This document shows, piece after piece, positions 11,746 through 21,201 of a DNA stretch of 22,504 nucleotides. The first letter of the stretch is position 1. Each line of letters starts with the position of its first letter. Location: IMG/VR virus record IMGVR_UViG_3300027741_000291, positions 1-22,504 of that record, one strand, 5' to 3'. Position numbers and translations under genes: made by a program. The notes beneath the pieces are model-generated. The model worked only from the letters and a program-made list of their open reading frames with translations, was not told the DNA's origin and searched no databases. This DNA comes from a virus.

Positions 11746-13686
11746 ATGAGTTACAACGGTTCAGGCACGTTCAACATCAACACAGCGGGCCAGCCCGTTG
11801 TTACAGGCACAGTAATCACTAGCACAGCATTTAACTTGCTGACTGCTGACTTGGCAAGCGGTTTAACGACCGCATTGACAAAAGATGGTCAAACCACACC
11901 CACCGCAAACATCCCAATGGGGACGTTTAAGATCACTGGTTTGGGTGCGGGTACTGCGGCAACTGATGCGGCTCAATTTGGTCAATTGCAAGCGGGCGCA
12001 ACCCAAATTGCAACGGTCACAGGTACAGACACATTTGTGGGTACTTTATCGCCCGCCCTTGGTGCTTATGCAGCGGGTAATTTGTTCTCATTTGTTGCGC
12101 CTAATACGAACACAGGCGCTTCCACAATTAACCTAAACAGTTTGGGCGCTAAAAGCATTACAAAACTAGGCTCAACTGCGTTAGCTGCGGGTGATATTGT
12201 CAGTGGTCGAATCTATCTGATTGAATACGATGGAACTCGCTTTCAATTGATTAACCCGTCAGCCTCAAGCGTTTCGTCATTTAGCGCGGGTTCTACTGGT
12301 TTAACCCCATCTTCTGCCACTACAGGTGCTGTCACCCTTGCAGGCACATTGGCAACCACAAACGGCGGCACAGGACTAACATCCTTCACCGCTAACGGTG
12401 TGGTCTACGCATCATCTTCAAGTGCATTGGCTACTGGTTCTGCGCTGGTGTTTGATGGGACAAACTTAGGTGTTGCAAATAGTTCCCCATCTGATGCTGT
12501 AACAGTTGGAACAACTACTACTGGCAAGAACATTCGCATCTATTCATCAAGCAATGGAAATAACGGCCTTTTTAGAATGTTTGATTCGGGCGGTACGGAG
12601 CGTTTGCAATTAGGCGTAAATACTACTGGTGAAGCGGTTTATTACAGCCCTACTGGTTCTGTACACACTTGGTACATTAACACAGAACAAATGCGCCTAA
12701 CCAGCACAGGTCTGGGTATTGGTACAAGTAGTCCTAGTGCAAAACTTCAAGTTAAAGGTACAGTTAATTTTGAAGCAACTAATTCAACCAATGTTTGGAA
12801 TTTATATACCTACACAGACAACACATTGCGTTGGAACTATAACGGAGCAGGTGCTGATGAAATAGTCCTCGACACCTCCGGTAACCTTGGACTGGGTGTT
12901 ACTCCGAGTGCTTGGGGAAGCATCTTTAGAGTTAACCAAATTGGTAATTACGGTTCATACATTGGTGGACGTACTGATTCGTCTAATCAATTGCACCTTG
13001 GAACAAACTCGTATTACAACGGTACAAACTGGATTTATACCAATACAGCCGCTGCTACAAGATATGTTCAATCGTCTGGCGCACATGAGTGGTACAACGC
13101 TCCATCTGGCACAGCAGGTAATGCCATCACGTTTACTCAGGCAATGACACTGGATGCCAGTGGGAATTTGTTAATAACAAAAACAGCTACTGGTAATAAC
13201 TCTTTGGGTGTTGAACTCCGTGCCACTGGGCAAGTAACATCTAATTTGGTTGGCAGTACAAGTGCTACAGACACTTTGACTGTTTATTCAACCGGCGCTG
13301 GTGCATATCGTTTTTATGTTGACATGGGTGGAACTATTCACGCCACTTCAGTTGTGATTACAGCAATTTCCGACCAACGCCTCAAAGAAAATGTCCGTGA
13401 TATTGATACGGGTCTTTCTTCAATCATGGCGCTTAAACCGCGCAGATTTGATTGGAAAGAAGGCAAAGGACAAGACAAGAAAAATGCCGCTGGCTTTATC
13501 GCTGATGAATTTGAAACAGTATTTCCTGAATGTGTTGGTTTTTCAAAAGCTGGTGGGGATGGTGTTGAGTACAAGAACATCAACCATGAAACACTGATTC
13601 CTACATTGGTCAAAGCCATTCAAGAACAACAAGCCCTTATTGAATCACTCACAACCCGCCTCACGGCTTTAGAAAGCAAGGCATGA
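11746..13686 (+). CDS. Tail fibre/spike with C-terminal S74 intramolecular chaperone
   Basis: A 646-residue receptor-binding-type protein. The N-terminal ~60 residues (MSYNGSGTFNINTAGQPVVT) are an attachment-type segment, with a PMGTFKITGLGAGTAATDAA motif typical of fibre shafts, followed by a beta-rich repetitive body with GLGIGTSSPSAKLQVKG, the standard unit of S74-tipped fibres. The chaperone starts at Ser542 (SDQRLKENVRDI). Ser542 and Lys547 form the expected self-cleavage dyad, AAGFIADEFETVFPECV is conserved, and the end is a coiled coil (IQEQQALIESLTTRLTALES). The domain trimerises the fibre and is then removed. Shine-Dalgarno AAGGA precedes the ATG. The stop overlaps the HNH gene (ATGA), so that gene is coupled to fibre translation. 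Confidence 0.88.
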   Translation: MSYNGSGTFNINTAGQPVVTGTVITSTAFNLLTADLASGLTTALTKDGQTTPTANIPMGTFKITGLGAGTAATDAAQFGQLQAGATQIATVTGTDTFVGTLSPALGAYAAGNLFSFVAPNTNTGASTINLNSLGAKSITKLGSTALAAGDIVSGRIYLIEYDGTRFQLINPSASSVSSFSAGSTGLTPSSATTGAVTLAGTLATTNGGTGLTSFTANGVVYASSSSALATGSALVFDGTNLGVANSSPSDAVTVGTTTTGKNIRIYSSSNGNNGLFRMFDSGGTERLQLGVNTTGEAVYYSPTGSVHTWYINTEQMRLTSTGLGIGTSSPSAKLQVKGTVNFEATNSTNVWNLYTYTDNTLRWNYNGAGADEIVLDTSGNLGLGVTPSAWGSIFRVNQIGNYGSYIGGRTDSSNQLHLGTNSYYNGTNWIYTNTAAATRYVQSSGAHEWYNAPSGTAGNAITFTQAMTLDASGNLLITKTATGNNSLGVELRATGQVTSNLVGSTSATDTLTVYSTGAGAYRFYVDMGGTIHATSVVITAISDQRLKENVRDIDTGLSSIMALKPRRFDWKEGKGQDKKNAAGFIADEFETVFPECVGFSKAGGDGVEYKNINHETLIPTLVKAIQEQQALIESLTTRLTALESKA

Positions 13687-14159
13687 TTACACAAGAACAA
13701 GTGAATCATTTATTTGAGTACAAAGATGGTGTGCTGTTTTGGAAAAATTCTGCTCATCCATCTTTTAATGGAAAACAAGCTGGATGCGATGATGGTCAAG
13801 GGTACATCAAAATTACTGTTGGCGAAAAACAATATACAGCCCACAGGTTGATTTACTTGATGCACCACGGTGAACTGCCTGCCACCATAGATCATGCAGA
13901 TCGAAATGTAAAAAACAACCGAATTGAAAACTTGCGTGCCGCTGATGCAAGCAAGAATGGCATGAATGGTCGGGCAAAATTGTCGGCTACTGGTTGCAGA
14001 AATGTTACTCGCAAAAAGAATCGGAACAAATTTACTGTGATGATTCGAATTAACGGAAAAAGCACATTCATTGGAAATTTTGACGACTTGGAGTTGGCTG
14101 ATTTGGTAGCAACAGAAGCAAGGTCAAAATATCATGGCGAATTTGCGTTTCAATCTTAA
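13683..14159 (+). CDS. HNH homing-type endonuclease with AP2-like C-terminus
   Basis: A 158-residue free-standing HNH nuclease. Visible motifs are AHRLIYLMHHGELP (first His, residue 54), TIDHADRNVKNNRIENLR (His71, Asn79, Asn83) and a C-terminal AP2-type DNA-binding domain (SATGCRNVTRKKNRNKFTVM, FIGNFDDLELADLVATEARS). Such enzymes nick or cut DNA at a site in uninfected or rival genomes and spread themselves. It begins in an ATGA overlap with the fibre stop and ends 22 bases before the next gene. Insertion at the end of the fibre gene is a common place for such elements. I see no intron boundaries, so it is probably an intergenic homing gene. Confidence 0.88.
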   Translation: MITQEQVNHLFEYKDGVLFWKNSAHPSFNGKQAGCDDGQGYIKITVGEKQYTAHRLIYLMHHGELPATIDHADRNVKNNRIENLRAADASKNGMNGRAKLSATGCRNVTRKKNRNKFTVMIRINGKSTFIGNFDDLELADLVATEARSKYHGEFAFQS

Positions 14160-14484: not shown

Positions 14485-14718
14485 ATGGATTATCAGTCAG
14501 TTATCAATTTTGCGGCTGGTTTAGCCTTTACGGTAGCTGGCTGGTTTGCCCGTGAAATGTGGTCTGCTGTCAAAGAGTTGAAATCCGACTTGTCTAAACT
14601 GCGGGAAGAACTGCCTAAAACGTATGTTGCCCGTGATGATTACCGAGAAGATATGCGTGAAATTAAAGAAATGCTTGGAAAGATCTTTGATAAGTTAGAG
14701 GCCAAGCAAGACAAATAA
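14485..14718 (+). CDS. Small membrane protein, holin-accessory-like
   Basis: A 77-residue protein starting one base after the preceding stop. Residues ~6-22 (VINFAAGLAFTVAGWFA) form one transmembrane helix. The remainder is a charged coiled coil (AVKELKSDLSKLREELPKTY, then REDMREIKEMLGKIFDKLEA). This single-TM plus coiled-coil layout is seen in small proteins next to phage holins (XhlA-type and similar). It is probably an inner-membrane lysis or lysis-timing accessory, but no family can be assigned. Confidence 0.65.
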   Translation: MDYQSVINFAAGLAFTVAGWFAREMWSAVKELKSDLSKLREELPKTYVARDDYREDMREIKEMLGKIFDKLEAKQDK

Positions 14719-14723
14719 TCCGA

Positions 14724-14779
14724 ACGCTCCAGCGTGAAAAGGGGGTGCTGGCAGACCATCCTACGGGTTAACGTCTGCC
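14724..14779 (+). promoter_or_regulatory. Repeated structured leader RNA element, copy A
   Basis: Hairpin 1 is ACGC-TCCA-GCGT (14724-14735). A GAAAAGGGGG linker follows (14736-14745). Hairpin 2 has stem GGCAGAC (14750-14756) / GTCTGCC (14773-14779) around a loop containing TCCTA and ending in GGTTAAC. It ends 16 nt before the ATG at 14796, with the TTGGA ribosome-binding site in between. It has no T run, so it is not a standard terminator. Copy B at 18848-18904 (minus strand) matches it at about 36 of 44 aligned positions from the linker onward, and one stem pair has changed on both sides (G-C here, T-A there). Family not recognised. Confidence 0.7.
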
Positions 14780-14795
14780 CCAAATTGGAATGAAT

Positions 14796-15284
14796 ATGAT
14801 TGACCCCATAACGATAGGTGCTGCGTTTGCGATAGCCAAAAGCACGATTGCAGGGGTCAAAGAAGCAATCCAGATGGGCAAAGACCTACAGGAATGTAGT
14901 GGTGACTTAATAAAATTTTTTGAGCATAGGGATACAGTGGCTAAGGCTGCTGTACACGATAAAAAGAAATCAAAGTCTGACATGGGGCGGGCTTTAGACA
15001 CTGTGATGCAGGCCAAAGCCTTGCGTGATGCAGAAAAAGAATTAAAAGAACAGTTGATTTGGTCGGGTCAAGGCGATGTCTGGGAAGCCATCCAAGCCGA
15101 ATACAACATGATCGTGGCTAACCGCAAGCGGGAAGAACGTGAAGCAGAGGCCAAAGCCAAGCGGCGCAGAGAGGAAATGGCTGAGACTGTAAACATTTTG
15201 TTGATCGGCTTTGTTTCTTTTCTTGCTGCGGGGTTTATTGGGTGGGGTACGTTTGAATTTATCATGTACAAACTAAGGAACTGA
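14796..15284 (+). CDS. Coiled-coil protein with C-terminal transmembrane helix (lysis region)
   Basis: I place the start at the second ATG (14796; 162 residues, MIDPITIGAAFAIAKSTIAG) because GGA at 14787-14789 has ideal spacing to it. The ATG at 14790 would have almost none. Residues ~1-45 are a helical domain with GKDLQECSGDLIKFFE. A highly charged helix follows (NRKREEREAEAKAKRRREEM). Near the C-terminus is one membrane helix (NILLIGFVSFLAAGFIGWGT, about 132-152) with a very short tail. I recall similar uncharacterised proteins beside fibre/lysis genes of aquatic podophages. The basic residues before the helix predict the bulk to be cytoplasmic, which argues against a classical Rz spanin. 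It is the gene downstream of RNA element copy A. Confidence 0.7.
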   Translation: MIDPITIGAAFAIAKSTIAGVKEAIQMGKDLQECSGDLIKFFEHRDTVAKAAVHDKKKSKSDMGRALDTVMQAKALRDAEKELKEQLIWSGQGDVWEAIQAEYNMIVANRKREEREAEAKAKRRREEMAETVNILLIGFVSFLAAGFIGWGTFEFIMYKLRN

Positions 15285-18362: not shown

Positions 18363-18509
18363 TCACTGAGTTGTTTCGGGTACTTGTTGTTGCATTTTGA
18401 CTTGATGCTCAATTTTTTGCATCAATACATAAGCGCCCGATTTAGTGGGTAATTCACCCAACACTTGCAGAATAAAACTGATTTCGTTGGTTTCAAAATT
18501 AATATTCAT
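18363..18509 (-). CDS. Short phage protein (48 aa)
   Basis: Reading the minus strand from 18509 gives MNINFETNEISFILQVLGEL, then PTKSGAYVLMQKIEHQVKMQ, then QQVPETTQ and stop. The start codon overlaps the preceding stop (ATGA), with AAGGA eight bases upstream, as expected for a coupled gene. I recall a widespread family of very short phage proteins with the pattern 'VNyIL..L..lP...v..li.kI..Q...Q', which this fits well. Two helices with amphipathic character suggest a small oligomer. Function unknown. It is too short for standard ORF-length cut-offs. Confidence 0.75.
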   Translation of the reverse strand: MNINFETNEISFILQVLGELPTKSGAYVLMQKIEHQVKMQQQVPETTQ

Positions 18510-18829
18510 GTTTTTTCCTTTAAACACCATTCGCGCTCGTTGCGTCCGGTGTTTGATTTTACTTTGTTGCCTGTTTGCTTAATCAAATTTAGACGTTCCA
18601 TCTCGCTTAACCGTCTGGCAACTTGGTTGGGGTCTAGCGTTGTATTGCTAGATATTCCATCTTTACCAAGCGCACCATGCTTTGCCAAGCACTCAATGAT
18701 TTCCGTCCAATGATCTGGCGCTTTTTCTTTGATGCTGTCTGCTGCTTCATAACTCGTCACTGGGTCATCTTTGCGAACTCGCGGAAACAAGTTCAAAGGG
18801 TGACCACCAAAAAAATCTGAAAGTTTCAT
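18506..18829 (-). CDS. Winged-helix DNA-binding-type protein
   Basis: A 107-residue protein. Residues ~23-36 (PVTSYEAADSIKEK) and 40-101 (HWTEIIECLAKHGALGKDGI, DPNQVARRLSEMERLNLIKQ, TGRNEREWCL) fit a winged helix: helix, helix, recognition helix (PNQVARRLSEMERLNLI), then a two-strand wing. Proteins of this pattern are common in phage early regions and probably regulate transcription or assist replication. It begins with AAGGA six bases upstream of the ATG and is the gene directly after RNA element copy B. It overlaps the 48-aa gene by ATGA. Confidence 0.75.
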   Translation of the reverse strand: MKLSDFFGGHPLNLFPRVRKDDPVTSYEAADSIKEKAPDHWTEIIECLAKHGALGKDGISSNTTLDPNQVARRLSEMERLNLIKQTGNKVKSNTGRNEREWCLKEKT

Positions 18830-18847
18830 AATTTATCCTTAAAAGTA

Positions 18848-18904
18848 GCATACGTTGACCTAATAGGACGGTATGCCAGCGCCCCCTTTTCCCAGGAGTA
18901 TGGG
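18848..18904 (-). promoter_or_regulatory. Repeated structured leader RNA element, copy B
   Basis: Read on the minus strand: hairpin 1 is CCCA-TACTCC-TGGG (18904-18891). AAAAGGGGG follows (18890-18882), then GCTGGCA. Hairpin 2 has stem GCATAC (18876-18871) / GTATGC (18853-18848), with TCCTA and GGTCAAC inside the loop. It ends 18 nt before the ATG at 18829, with AAGGA between. The layout and the sequence blocks match copy A (14724-14779). The fourth pair of the stem is T-A here and G-C in copy A. It sits in the gap between two minus-strand early genes, so it could control the downstream winged-helix gene. Confidence 0.7.
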
Positions 18905-18915
18905 TTAGGCCATGT

Positions 18916-19146
18916 TTAAAAGTTTATATCGGAATCGTCTTTTAAATTATCTTTTTCGCGCGGTTCATTGATGTATGCCCAACCAGACCAAGCGCCCTCC
19001 ATTACAGGGATAACGTCAATCTTCAGCATTTCACCATTTTTTGTGTCAATGATTGATCCGATACGGGTATAGCGGTTCTTTTCTTGCCCTTGGGTGTTTT
19101 TGTATTTGCCTGTGATAACTGAGATTTCTTTAAGCACTTTTGCCAT
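18916..19146 (-). CDS. Small phage recombination-region protein
   Basis: I prefer Met5 (19146; 76 residues, MAKVLKEISVITGKYKNTQG) because GAAAG precedes it at suitable spacing, as in neighbouring genes. The alternative ATG at 19158 adds four residues. The pattern 'ISVITGKY.N.QGQEKNRYTRIGSII.....GEMLKIDVIPV...WSGWAYINEPRE' is a small beta-rich fold that I recall recurring beside phage exonuclease/annealing genes. It may be an OB-like single-strand DNA-binding or accessory protein, but this is unproven. The start overlaps the end of the exonuclease gene by 17 bases. The C-terminus is acidic (KDDSDINF), like the tails of single-strand binding proteins. Confidence 0.65.
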   Translation of the reverse strand: MAKVLKEISVITGKYKNTQGQEKNRYTRIGSIIDTKNGEMLKIDVIPVMEGAWSGWAYINEPREKDNLKDDSDINF

Positions 19147-19753
19147 ATTTTCTTTCATTAAGGTTCTTAATTTTTGTTTCTAGTTCACCTAAAAACTCTT
19201 GGATTTCGTACTCCAGCATTTTTACATAAATAGGCTCAAATTCAACCCGTTTAATAAATAACTGGAGTCCTTCAGGCATTCTAGGGTCAAAACTAACAAA
19301 GTCGCACCAATCTCTTTCGGTACACGCCATTTGCCATTGCATCTGGGTAATGTACTTGGTTGGCACTTTTTGTAATAAGACTGTTTCAATGTGCGTTGCA
19401 GTGTTAGGGCACTTAATCTCAATCAATCCGTTGTAGTCCACAAGGCCATCAGGAGACGCTCCAGCCTCTGTAATGCGCGGGTGAATGACAAAGCCTGTCT
19501 CAGCCACTAAAACGTCTTTAATCGCCTCGTATGCGGCCCTGGCTAACGGTTCTTGATCTGTACCCCACTGCATTGCAGCATTAGTGTAGCTTTCTCCTTG
19601 CGTTCCGGTCATGCGTTCGCAAACCAGTTGGGCCATGTAGTTGTCACGGCTGGCGCTATAACCTGTCTTCGTTTTGGCGATAACGTCAGCTACTTTGGAT
19701 GCGGTTACCTTACCCAATCGGGCGGCAAACCATTCAGGGCTTCTTTGTTCCAT
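19130..19753 (-). CDS. YqaJ-type viral recombinase / lambda-exonuclease-family nuclease
   Basis: A 207-residue 5'-3' exonuclease of the YqaJ / lambda Exo class (PD-(D/E)XK fold). It would resect double-strand ends to make single strands for the ERF annealing protein. Motifs: QRSPEWFAARLGKVTAS near the N-terminus, WGTDQEPLAR (Glu68), catalytic ASPDG (Asp102) and IEIKCPN (Glu112, Lys114), and YITQMQWQMAC (Gln139/141). ATG at 19753 overlaps the ERF stop (TGATG). An in-frame GTG one codon earlier is an alternative. The ERF-exonuclease order and coupling define a two-component recombination operon. Confidence 0.92.
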   Translation of the reverse strand: MEQRSPEWFAARLGKVTASKVADVIAKTKTGYSASRDNYMAQLVCERMTGTQGESYTNAAMQWGTDQEPLARAAYEAIKDVLVAETGFVIHPRITEAGASPDGLVDYNGLIEIKCPNTATHIETVLLQKVPTKYITQMQWQMACTERDWCDFVSFDPRMPEGLQLFIKRVEFEPIYVKMLEYEIQEFLGELETKIKNLNERKYGKSA

Positions 19754-20939: not shown

Positions 20940-21098
20940 ATGATAACAAAACAGCAAGCAATTGAATTAGCGGGTTCACAAGCAAATTTAGCTAGGCTTT
21001 TAGGCATCACAAGGGGCGCTGTCTGGCTGTGGGAGACGATACCCCAGGCAAGGATTTGGCAGCTAAAACTCTTGCGTCCAGAGTGGTTTATGAAGTAA
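20940..21098 (+). CDS. Cro-like HTH regulator
   Basis: A 52-residue protein (start MITKQQAIELAGSQANLARL). The helix-turn-helix is SQANLARLLGITRGAVWLWE (residues ~13-32), followed by the IPQARIWQLKLLRPEWF closing helix seen in Cro/YdaS-type phage repressors. I take the ATG at 20940 and not the upstream in-frame start at 20904, because the latter would lie inside the promoter and lacks the family pattern. It is divergent from the recombination operon, so it likely controls both early promoters by binding between them. No partner CI-type repressor is in the window. Confidence 0.8.
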   Translation: MITKQQAIELAGSQANLARLLGITRGAVWLWETIPQARIWQLKLLRPEWFMK

Positions 21099-21201
21099 GA
21101 TTGTTTGAAACCAGCTAGGTACGAAGTCATGAGCGTACTGAAAAGAGTTACCCCTTCTCCTGCTGTTGTTTCTTTCTAAGGGGCTATAAAAAGCGGGCTA
21201 T
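21099..21201 (+). other. Structured leader before replication gene
   Basis: This gap holds two inverted repeats: GTACG (21119-21123) / CGTAC (21134-21138), and CCCCTT (21151-21156) / AAGGGG (21178-21183) around a pyrimidine-rich loop. The ribosome-binding site before the ATG at 21202 is weak (AAGCGGG). The second stem is not followed by a T run. These may modulate read-through or translation of the replication gene. I see no ORF here. Confidence 0.4.

Follow-up and report, generated by a model that had tools for sequence, protein, structure and literature searches.

We analysed a 22,504-nt stretch of viral DNA (positions 1 to 22,504 of IMG/VR record IMGVR_UViG_3300027741_000291), called the window below. 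It carries two copies of a structured RNA element on opposite strands: copy A in a late operon (14715–14779, plus strand) and copy B in an early operon (18847–18913, minus strand). A first-pass annotation, made from the letters alone, had located both copies and put their similarity at about 36 of 44 positions; from GAAAAG on, exactly 36 of 44 are identical. The window contains the shared core twice, and none of 100 dinucleotide-preserving shuffles contains it, even with three mismatches allowed. The extent first drawn fell short at the 5’ boundary, which lies about 10 nt further out, at 14715 and 18913. With these limits, covariance-model matches reach 68.9 bits for copy A (E 6e-15 to 8e-15) and 83.7 bits for copy B (E 9e-19 to 1e-18).

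Copy A begins where an upstream gene of 77 aa ends (ORF 14485–14718), and the TAA stop of that gene supplies the first three bases of the 5’ strand of helix P1 (UAAUCCG, 14716–14722), which pairs with CGGGUUA at 14764–14770. Next come hairpin P2 (ACGC-UCCA-GCGU, 14724–14735) and P3 (14742–14762), in which 14742–14747 pair with 14757–14762 (GGGGUG/CAUCCU). The P3 loop holds the 5’ strand of a pseudoknot helix (GGCAGAC, 14750–14756), and the matching 3’ strand (GUCUGCC, 14773–14779) contains C14775, the partner of G14754. The ATG of the downstream cistron (14796–15284, plus strand; MIDPITIG..., a membrane-anchored protein of unknown function, phrog_32327) lies 16 nt past the element, and an in-frame ATG at 14790 is an alternative start. 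An HNH endonuclease gene (13683–14159, plus strand; PF13392, phrog_99) precedes copy A by about 560 nt and possibly encodes a free-standing homing endonuclease.

Copy B has the same parts on the minus strand. The P1 5’ strand UGGCCUA (18906–18912) pairs with 18856–18862, and P2 is CCCA-UACUCC-UGGG (18891–18904). In P3 (18865–18885), 18885–18880 pair with 18870–18865 (GGGGCG/CGUCCU), and C18881-G18869 stands where copy A has U-A. The pseudoknot strands are GGCAUAC (18871–18877) and GUAUGCU (18847–18853). The upstream cistron (18916–19158, minus strand; 80 aa, function unknown) has its stop codon at 18918–18916, 2 nt before the element. The downstream cistron (18506–18829, minus strand) starts with an ATG at 18829, 17 nt past the element, and encodes a 107-aa winged-helix-like protein (phrog_1123) whose homologue at locus L136 additionally matches a MarR PHROG. 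Both copies are in sense with the gene that follows, at distances within the 16–18 nt first given.

Neither copy is a terminator, as the first-pass annotation had already concluded: the GC hairpin is not followed by the T run of an intrinsic terminator, here or in the other copies, and CCAAATTGG and ACTTTTAAGG run straight into the start codon. Elsewhere in the window, at 21108–21182 (plus strand), a sub-threshold Rfam match to int-alpA RNA (28.4 bits against a gathering cutoff of 35.8, E 0.03) adjoins the 3’ side of a short HTH-like ORF ending at 21098.

Fold and covariation

The element is an RNA of about 65 nt with a four-helix fold that is supported by covariation. Hairpins P2 and P3 form a three-way junction closed by P1, and a strand of 7 nt on the 3’ side of P1 is the pairing partner of the P3 loop. 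The geometry is that of a classic H-type pseudoknot, made of P3, a 2-nt loop (CU) and a 7-bp helix directly abutting P3; its third loop is taken up, together with the 5’ end, into P1, which gives the three-way junction with P2. The main stem described earlier corresponds to the pseudoknot helix. That helix is real and kept in homologues, but P1, P2 and P3 had been missed.

To count base pairs we used a covariance-model alignment of 49 rows (48 distinct) and one fixed structure, with P1 formed by columns 2–7 and 10 with 62–67 and 60, P3 by 34–39 with 49–52, 55 and 57, and the pseudoknot by 42–48 with 70–76. Standard pairs filled 99.4% of cells, and 26–47% once partners were slid by 1–3 columns. 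Two-sided compensatory changes were found at 10 of 20 pairs, comprising five of the seven in P1, three in P3 and two in the pseudoknot. They occupied 89 cells against 26.5 ± 4.3 in shuffled alignments, and none of 500 shuffles scored as high on any of five measures; the rows are related, so these are not counts of independent events. Despite that kinship, chance is untenable as a source of the fold, given the slid controls and how many pair types occur. The three P3 pairs interchange GU with CG, GC with CG and UA with CG. In the pseudoknot, column pair 46–72 passes from G-C to U-A in six rows and column pair 44–74 from C-G to U-A in L267 and L275 (GGUAGAC/GUCUACC), while three further pairs vary to G-U only. 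The single compensatory pair noticed at the outset (G14754-C14775 in copy A, T18873-A18851 in copy B) is correct. Homologues that break this stem had been named in advance as evidence against an RNA structure; there are none among the 48 distinct homologues. Every cell of the stem (100%) is paired, and changes are two-sided at two pairs and one-sided at three.

P2 slips in the alignment and was hence scored on its own. Its stem is kept across differing sequences (ACGC/GCGU, CCAC/GUGG, CCGC/GCGG, CUGGA/UCCAG, CCGA/UCGG and GCC/GGC), and the best stem averages 4.0 bp against 3.0 ± 0.15 in shuffles. Conservation beyond pairing covers a near-invariant core, GGYGCUGGYANRCCRUC, and AAA before P3; the most conserved part of the element is helical, and conserved unpaired positions are few. 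The fold is invisible to single-sequence MFE folding (z about 0 to −1), as expected because the element is a pseudoknot. In seven copies evaluated, the MFE was −19 to −24 kcal/mol; the nested helices plus the pseudoknot helix came to about −24 to −30 kcal/mol in six of them, before any pseudoknot penalty, the exception being L276 at −15.6 kcal/mol.

Homologues and gene context

Beyond the window, the family is present in 50 or more viral contigs. Scanning IMG/VR with a sequence pattern gave 31 stretches, and a search with the winged-helix protein encoded after copy B returned 33 loci, several of them with diverged leaders; two relaxed patterns added more copies, two with a changed pseudoknot strand. 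Copies also occur in contigs that do not have the copy-B gene pair. In 84,980 bacterial and archaeal genomes, scanned twice with exact patterns, there was no host or prophage copy, deposited phages and plasmids held no convincing relative, and covariance model R1 found nothing significant in five related phage records. The family is so far known only from uncultivated viral contigs, and its carriers are freshwater phages. One 45.9-kb contig, G003, has two late-type copies, L005 and L026 (2323–2387 and 40632–40697, both on the minus strand), before two different genes, a holin gene and one encoding MDDKGALIEK....

The first-pass annotation had proposed a comparison with Rfam. Rfam 15 contains no family related to the element: there was no relevant match in the window, in either copy, in the diverged copy at L136 or in ten related loci, and the best chance match scored 13.7 bits against a gathering cutoff of 45. 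A search of the open-access literature, with subscription papers outside it, found no description of the element. It constitutes an RNA family whose defined pseudoknot fold is backed by covariation and which the Rfam copy searched lacks.

All placed copies are flanked by an ORF on each side and run in sense with the second. Usually the upstream stop codon lies no more than about 4 nt from where the element begins (8 nt in the L119/L127 type), and in 38 of 46 rows the next ATG comes 16–21 nt past the last base of the element. The other eight comprise three with an in-frame upstream ATG counted at 10 nt (the MIDP start being at 16), two true spacings of 24–25 nt, and L025, L068 and L073, where a second structured RNA (motif 2, below) comes next and the counted ATG falls inside it. 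The proposal of a structured RNA in a gene leader is thus strongly supported as to structure, while the location is better called an intercistronic junction, usually starting at the upstream stop.

Two unrelated downstream genes had been pointed out in the window; we find at least seven downstream families, among them winged-helix (phrog_1123), the membrane-anchored phrog_32327, holin (phrog_3427), phrog_2693, two TM/coiled proteins, a 42-aa ORF and a lipoprotein-like ORF. Upstream families are equally varied and include a Mu Gam-like protein. The RNA is therefore conserved independently of its neighbours.

Possible roles at gene junctions

At some gene pairs the element is naturally present in certain phages and absent from others. 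The copy-A pair has it in the window and in G008. In G011, which is without it, the upstream stop TGA overlaps the downstream ATG (GATAATGATTGACC), and in G033, also without it, only a few bases separate the genes. At the copy-B pair in L083–L097, again without the element, the stop overlaps the Shine-Dalgarno sequence (TGAGGAAAAGTCATG). The element occupies sites at which junctions of this kind, which would be translationally coupled, otherwise stand.

Mainly because relatives without the element have overlapping or nearly overlapping gene pairs, which is a correlation, we infer that the element acts in cis, as an intercistronic stretch of mRNA that frees translation of the downstream gene from dependence on its neighbour, a reading to which we give a little under an even chance. 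At a junction without the element, ribosomes finishing the first gene would read the second. The fold usually opens at the upstream stop and closes with room for one ribosome-binding site ahead of the next start, and once formed it would keep terminating ribosomes from passing to that start; the downstream gene would gain an entry site of its own, hence its own level or timing. Besides the presence and absence at the same gene pairs, the covariation-supported structure and the junction position agree with uncoupling, as does the modular slot, in which an unrelated structured RNA can sit alone or in tandem. Against it, compact phage genomes have overlapping genes by default, and a lost overlap may be a by-product of insertion. 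Four tandem cases (L025, L068, L073 and L275) place the element about 100 nt from the ATG, where it need not touch the initiating ribosome. Primary-sequence conservation in P3 and the pseudoknot also exceeds the needs of a simple insulator. Such a core, near-invariant beyond what a spacer needs, would call for a specific partner, more probably a host one (the ribosome, S1, an RNase or a small molecule) than one supplied by the phage. The natural presence and absence at the same gene pairs makes it testable whether phages insert folded RNA to uncouple neighbours. At the T4 gene 26-25 junction, mRNA structure reportedly affects initiation by rearranging the intercistronic RBS itself, whereas the element is a separate pseudoknotted module upstream of the RBS.

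A phage- or host-encoded RNA-binding protein might instead act on the pseudoknot to repress (or activate) the next gene, as in a translational operator. Leader position, pseudoknot and near-invariant core are compatible with this, and T4 gp32 offers a precedent: the pseudoknot that it binds lies 67 nt ahead of its start codon (PMC3014915). Like the gene 32 leaders of T4, T2 and RB69, the element is an H-type pseudoknot with coaxial stems in phage mRNA, upstream of the RBS (PMC3014915), with two-sided changes in both P3 and the pseudoknot. Unlike them, it adds P1 and P2 in a three-way junction, is intercistronic instead of an autoregulatory leader, usually ends 16–21 nt short of the start codon and precedes many different genes; with winged-helix, holin, membrane and unknown families downstream, it does not show gene 32-type autoregulation. 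The T4 operator also includes an A+U-rich stretch overlapping the RBS (PMC3014915), whereas the spacers here are short and variable. Nor did a comparison of 14 carriers (22–52 kb) provide a shared phage binding protein: one protein family is common to all, and its longest member looks, from its sequence, like a tail protein. The winged-helix protein and the protein encoded upstream of copy B were considered as general regulators and rejected, as both are absent from the 40–52 kb carriers; G001, G003, G004 and G026 carry copies and lack the winged-helix gene, a homologue of the copy-B upstream gene, and ERF. An operator of a phage protein shared by early and late genes is disfavoured because these near-genome-size carriers lack the candidates and only the tail-like family occurs in all 14; most contigs are fragments, so this absence is not proof. 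We consider a phage-encoded operator protein unlikely, unless the fragmentary contigs mislead, and favour a host factor or none. A host protein could be the operator-binding factor, and the operator reading as a whole is in our judgement an unlikely one.

Also unlikely, and rather more so, is a mechanical nuclease barrier of xrRNA-like or REP-like type that would halt an exonuclease at the junction, so that the two cistrons decay at different rates. Mosquito-borne flavivirus xrRNAs have a three-way junction with an L3-S4 pseudoknot, and the element shares this topology, with helix order P1-P2-P3-P1’ and the P3 loop pairing 3’ of P1 (PMC5760640); the junction position and the tandem arrangement with a second structured RNA would fit as well. 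Unlike xrRNA, the element is in dsDNA phages, adjoins a stop codon, has a 7-bp pseudoknot without a gap to P3 and shows no covariance-model similarity or Rfam xrRNA match. Nor is there a sign of the ring formed when the 5’ end pairs with the junction and passes through it: P1 starts within a few nucleotides of the stop codon in most copies, and no 5’ tail is conserved. REP and other intergenic stabilisers of bacterial operons are simple hairpins between cistrons that give unequal expression; the element shares their location and differs in its conserved pseudoknot. We file it under neither the T4 gene 32-type operator nor the flavivirus xrRNA.

Several small riboswitches have the architecture of a compact H-type pseudoknot next to the RBS, and the near-invariant loop and core nucleotides beside the RBS could suit a ligand-sensing leader in which P3 and the pseudoknot bind a small molecule and alter RBS access. 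However, none of the at least seven downstream families is recognisably metabolic, there is no Rfam riboswitch match, and in the tandem cases the element is about 100 nt from the RBS. Kissing between the P2 loop (CUCC, anti-Shine-Dalgarno-like) and the downstream Shine-Dalgarno sequence was rejected, with a longest complementarity of 3.34 against 3.26 ± 0.09 with leaders swapped and 115 of 500 shuffles as high, which is not above chance. Of the functions guessed in the first-pass annotation, a riboswitch-like sensor keeps a low probability; the shared phage-protein operator is disfavoured, and so is a free small RNA, since all placed copies sit between genes and have the orientation of the cistron that follows. 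The guesses are only narrowed.

Self-cleavage between the two cistrons would match the small pseudoknotted fold at cistron junctions and the conserved unpaired A-rich and CU positions, yet there are few such positions, conservation is strongest in a helical part and Rfam ribozymes show no similarity, which makes a ribozyme very improbable. We give almost no credence to a DNA-level recombination or packaging site, or a mobile repeat, whose folding is incidental. Similar elements do occur in phages sharing few other genes, and at differing gene pairs, but compensatory changes in all helices, pseudoknot included, and the sense orientation to genes on both strands contradict it; horizontal spread of the RNA element itself is likely.

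A second structured RNA at the same junctions

The second RNA, motif 2, has the form GGGG-AAAGCGGAUGCUG-hairpin-CAGAC-GCAGCGAGUA-CCCC. It follows the element (motif 1) in L025, L068, L073, L134 and L275 (only its beginning in L275), and stands in its place in L076–L078. A pattern scan found motif 2 in at least 120 viral stretches, often directly before the RBS and sometimes in tandem with itself (L151, L197); no copy of motif 1 was found in motif-2 loci L140–L219. The closing stem covaries: among 119 distinct copies it is paired in 96% of cells, compared with 61% when shuffled. The core AAAGCGGAUGCUG...GCAGCGAGUA resembles a GAA/AGUA bulged-G motif, and no Rfam family matches motif 2. Motif 2 is much more widely spread among viral contigs than motif 1, whose niche it shares.

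Extending the uncoupling reading, there may be two or more families of structured, insertable RNA ‘junction modules’, the element being one, that phages swap into their gene junctions and that make coupled pairs independently expressed via a host factor, a broader scheme that we regard as possible but doubtful. At L080, L081 and L082, the winged-helix gene leaders carry a third, shorter conserved sequence (GAGGGGAAAACGGACAGCAAUGUCGGACGAACGCCAGUACC), whose GGGGAA...AGUACC ends are similar to motif 2.
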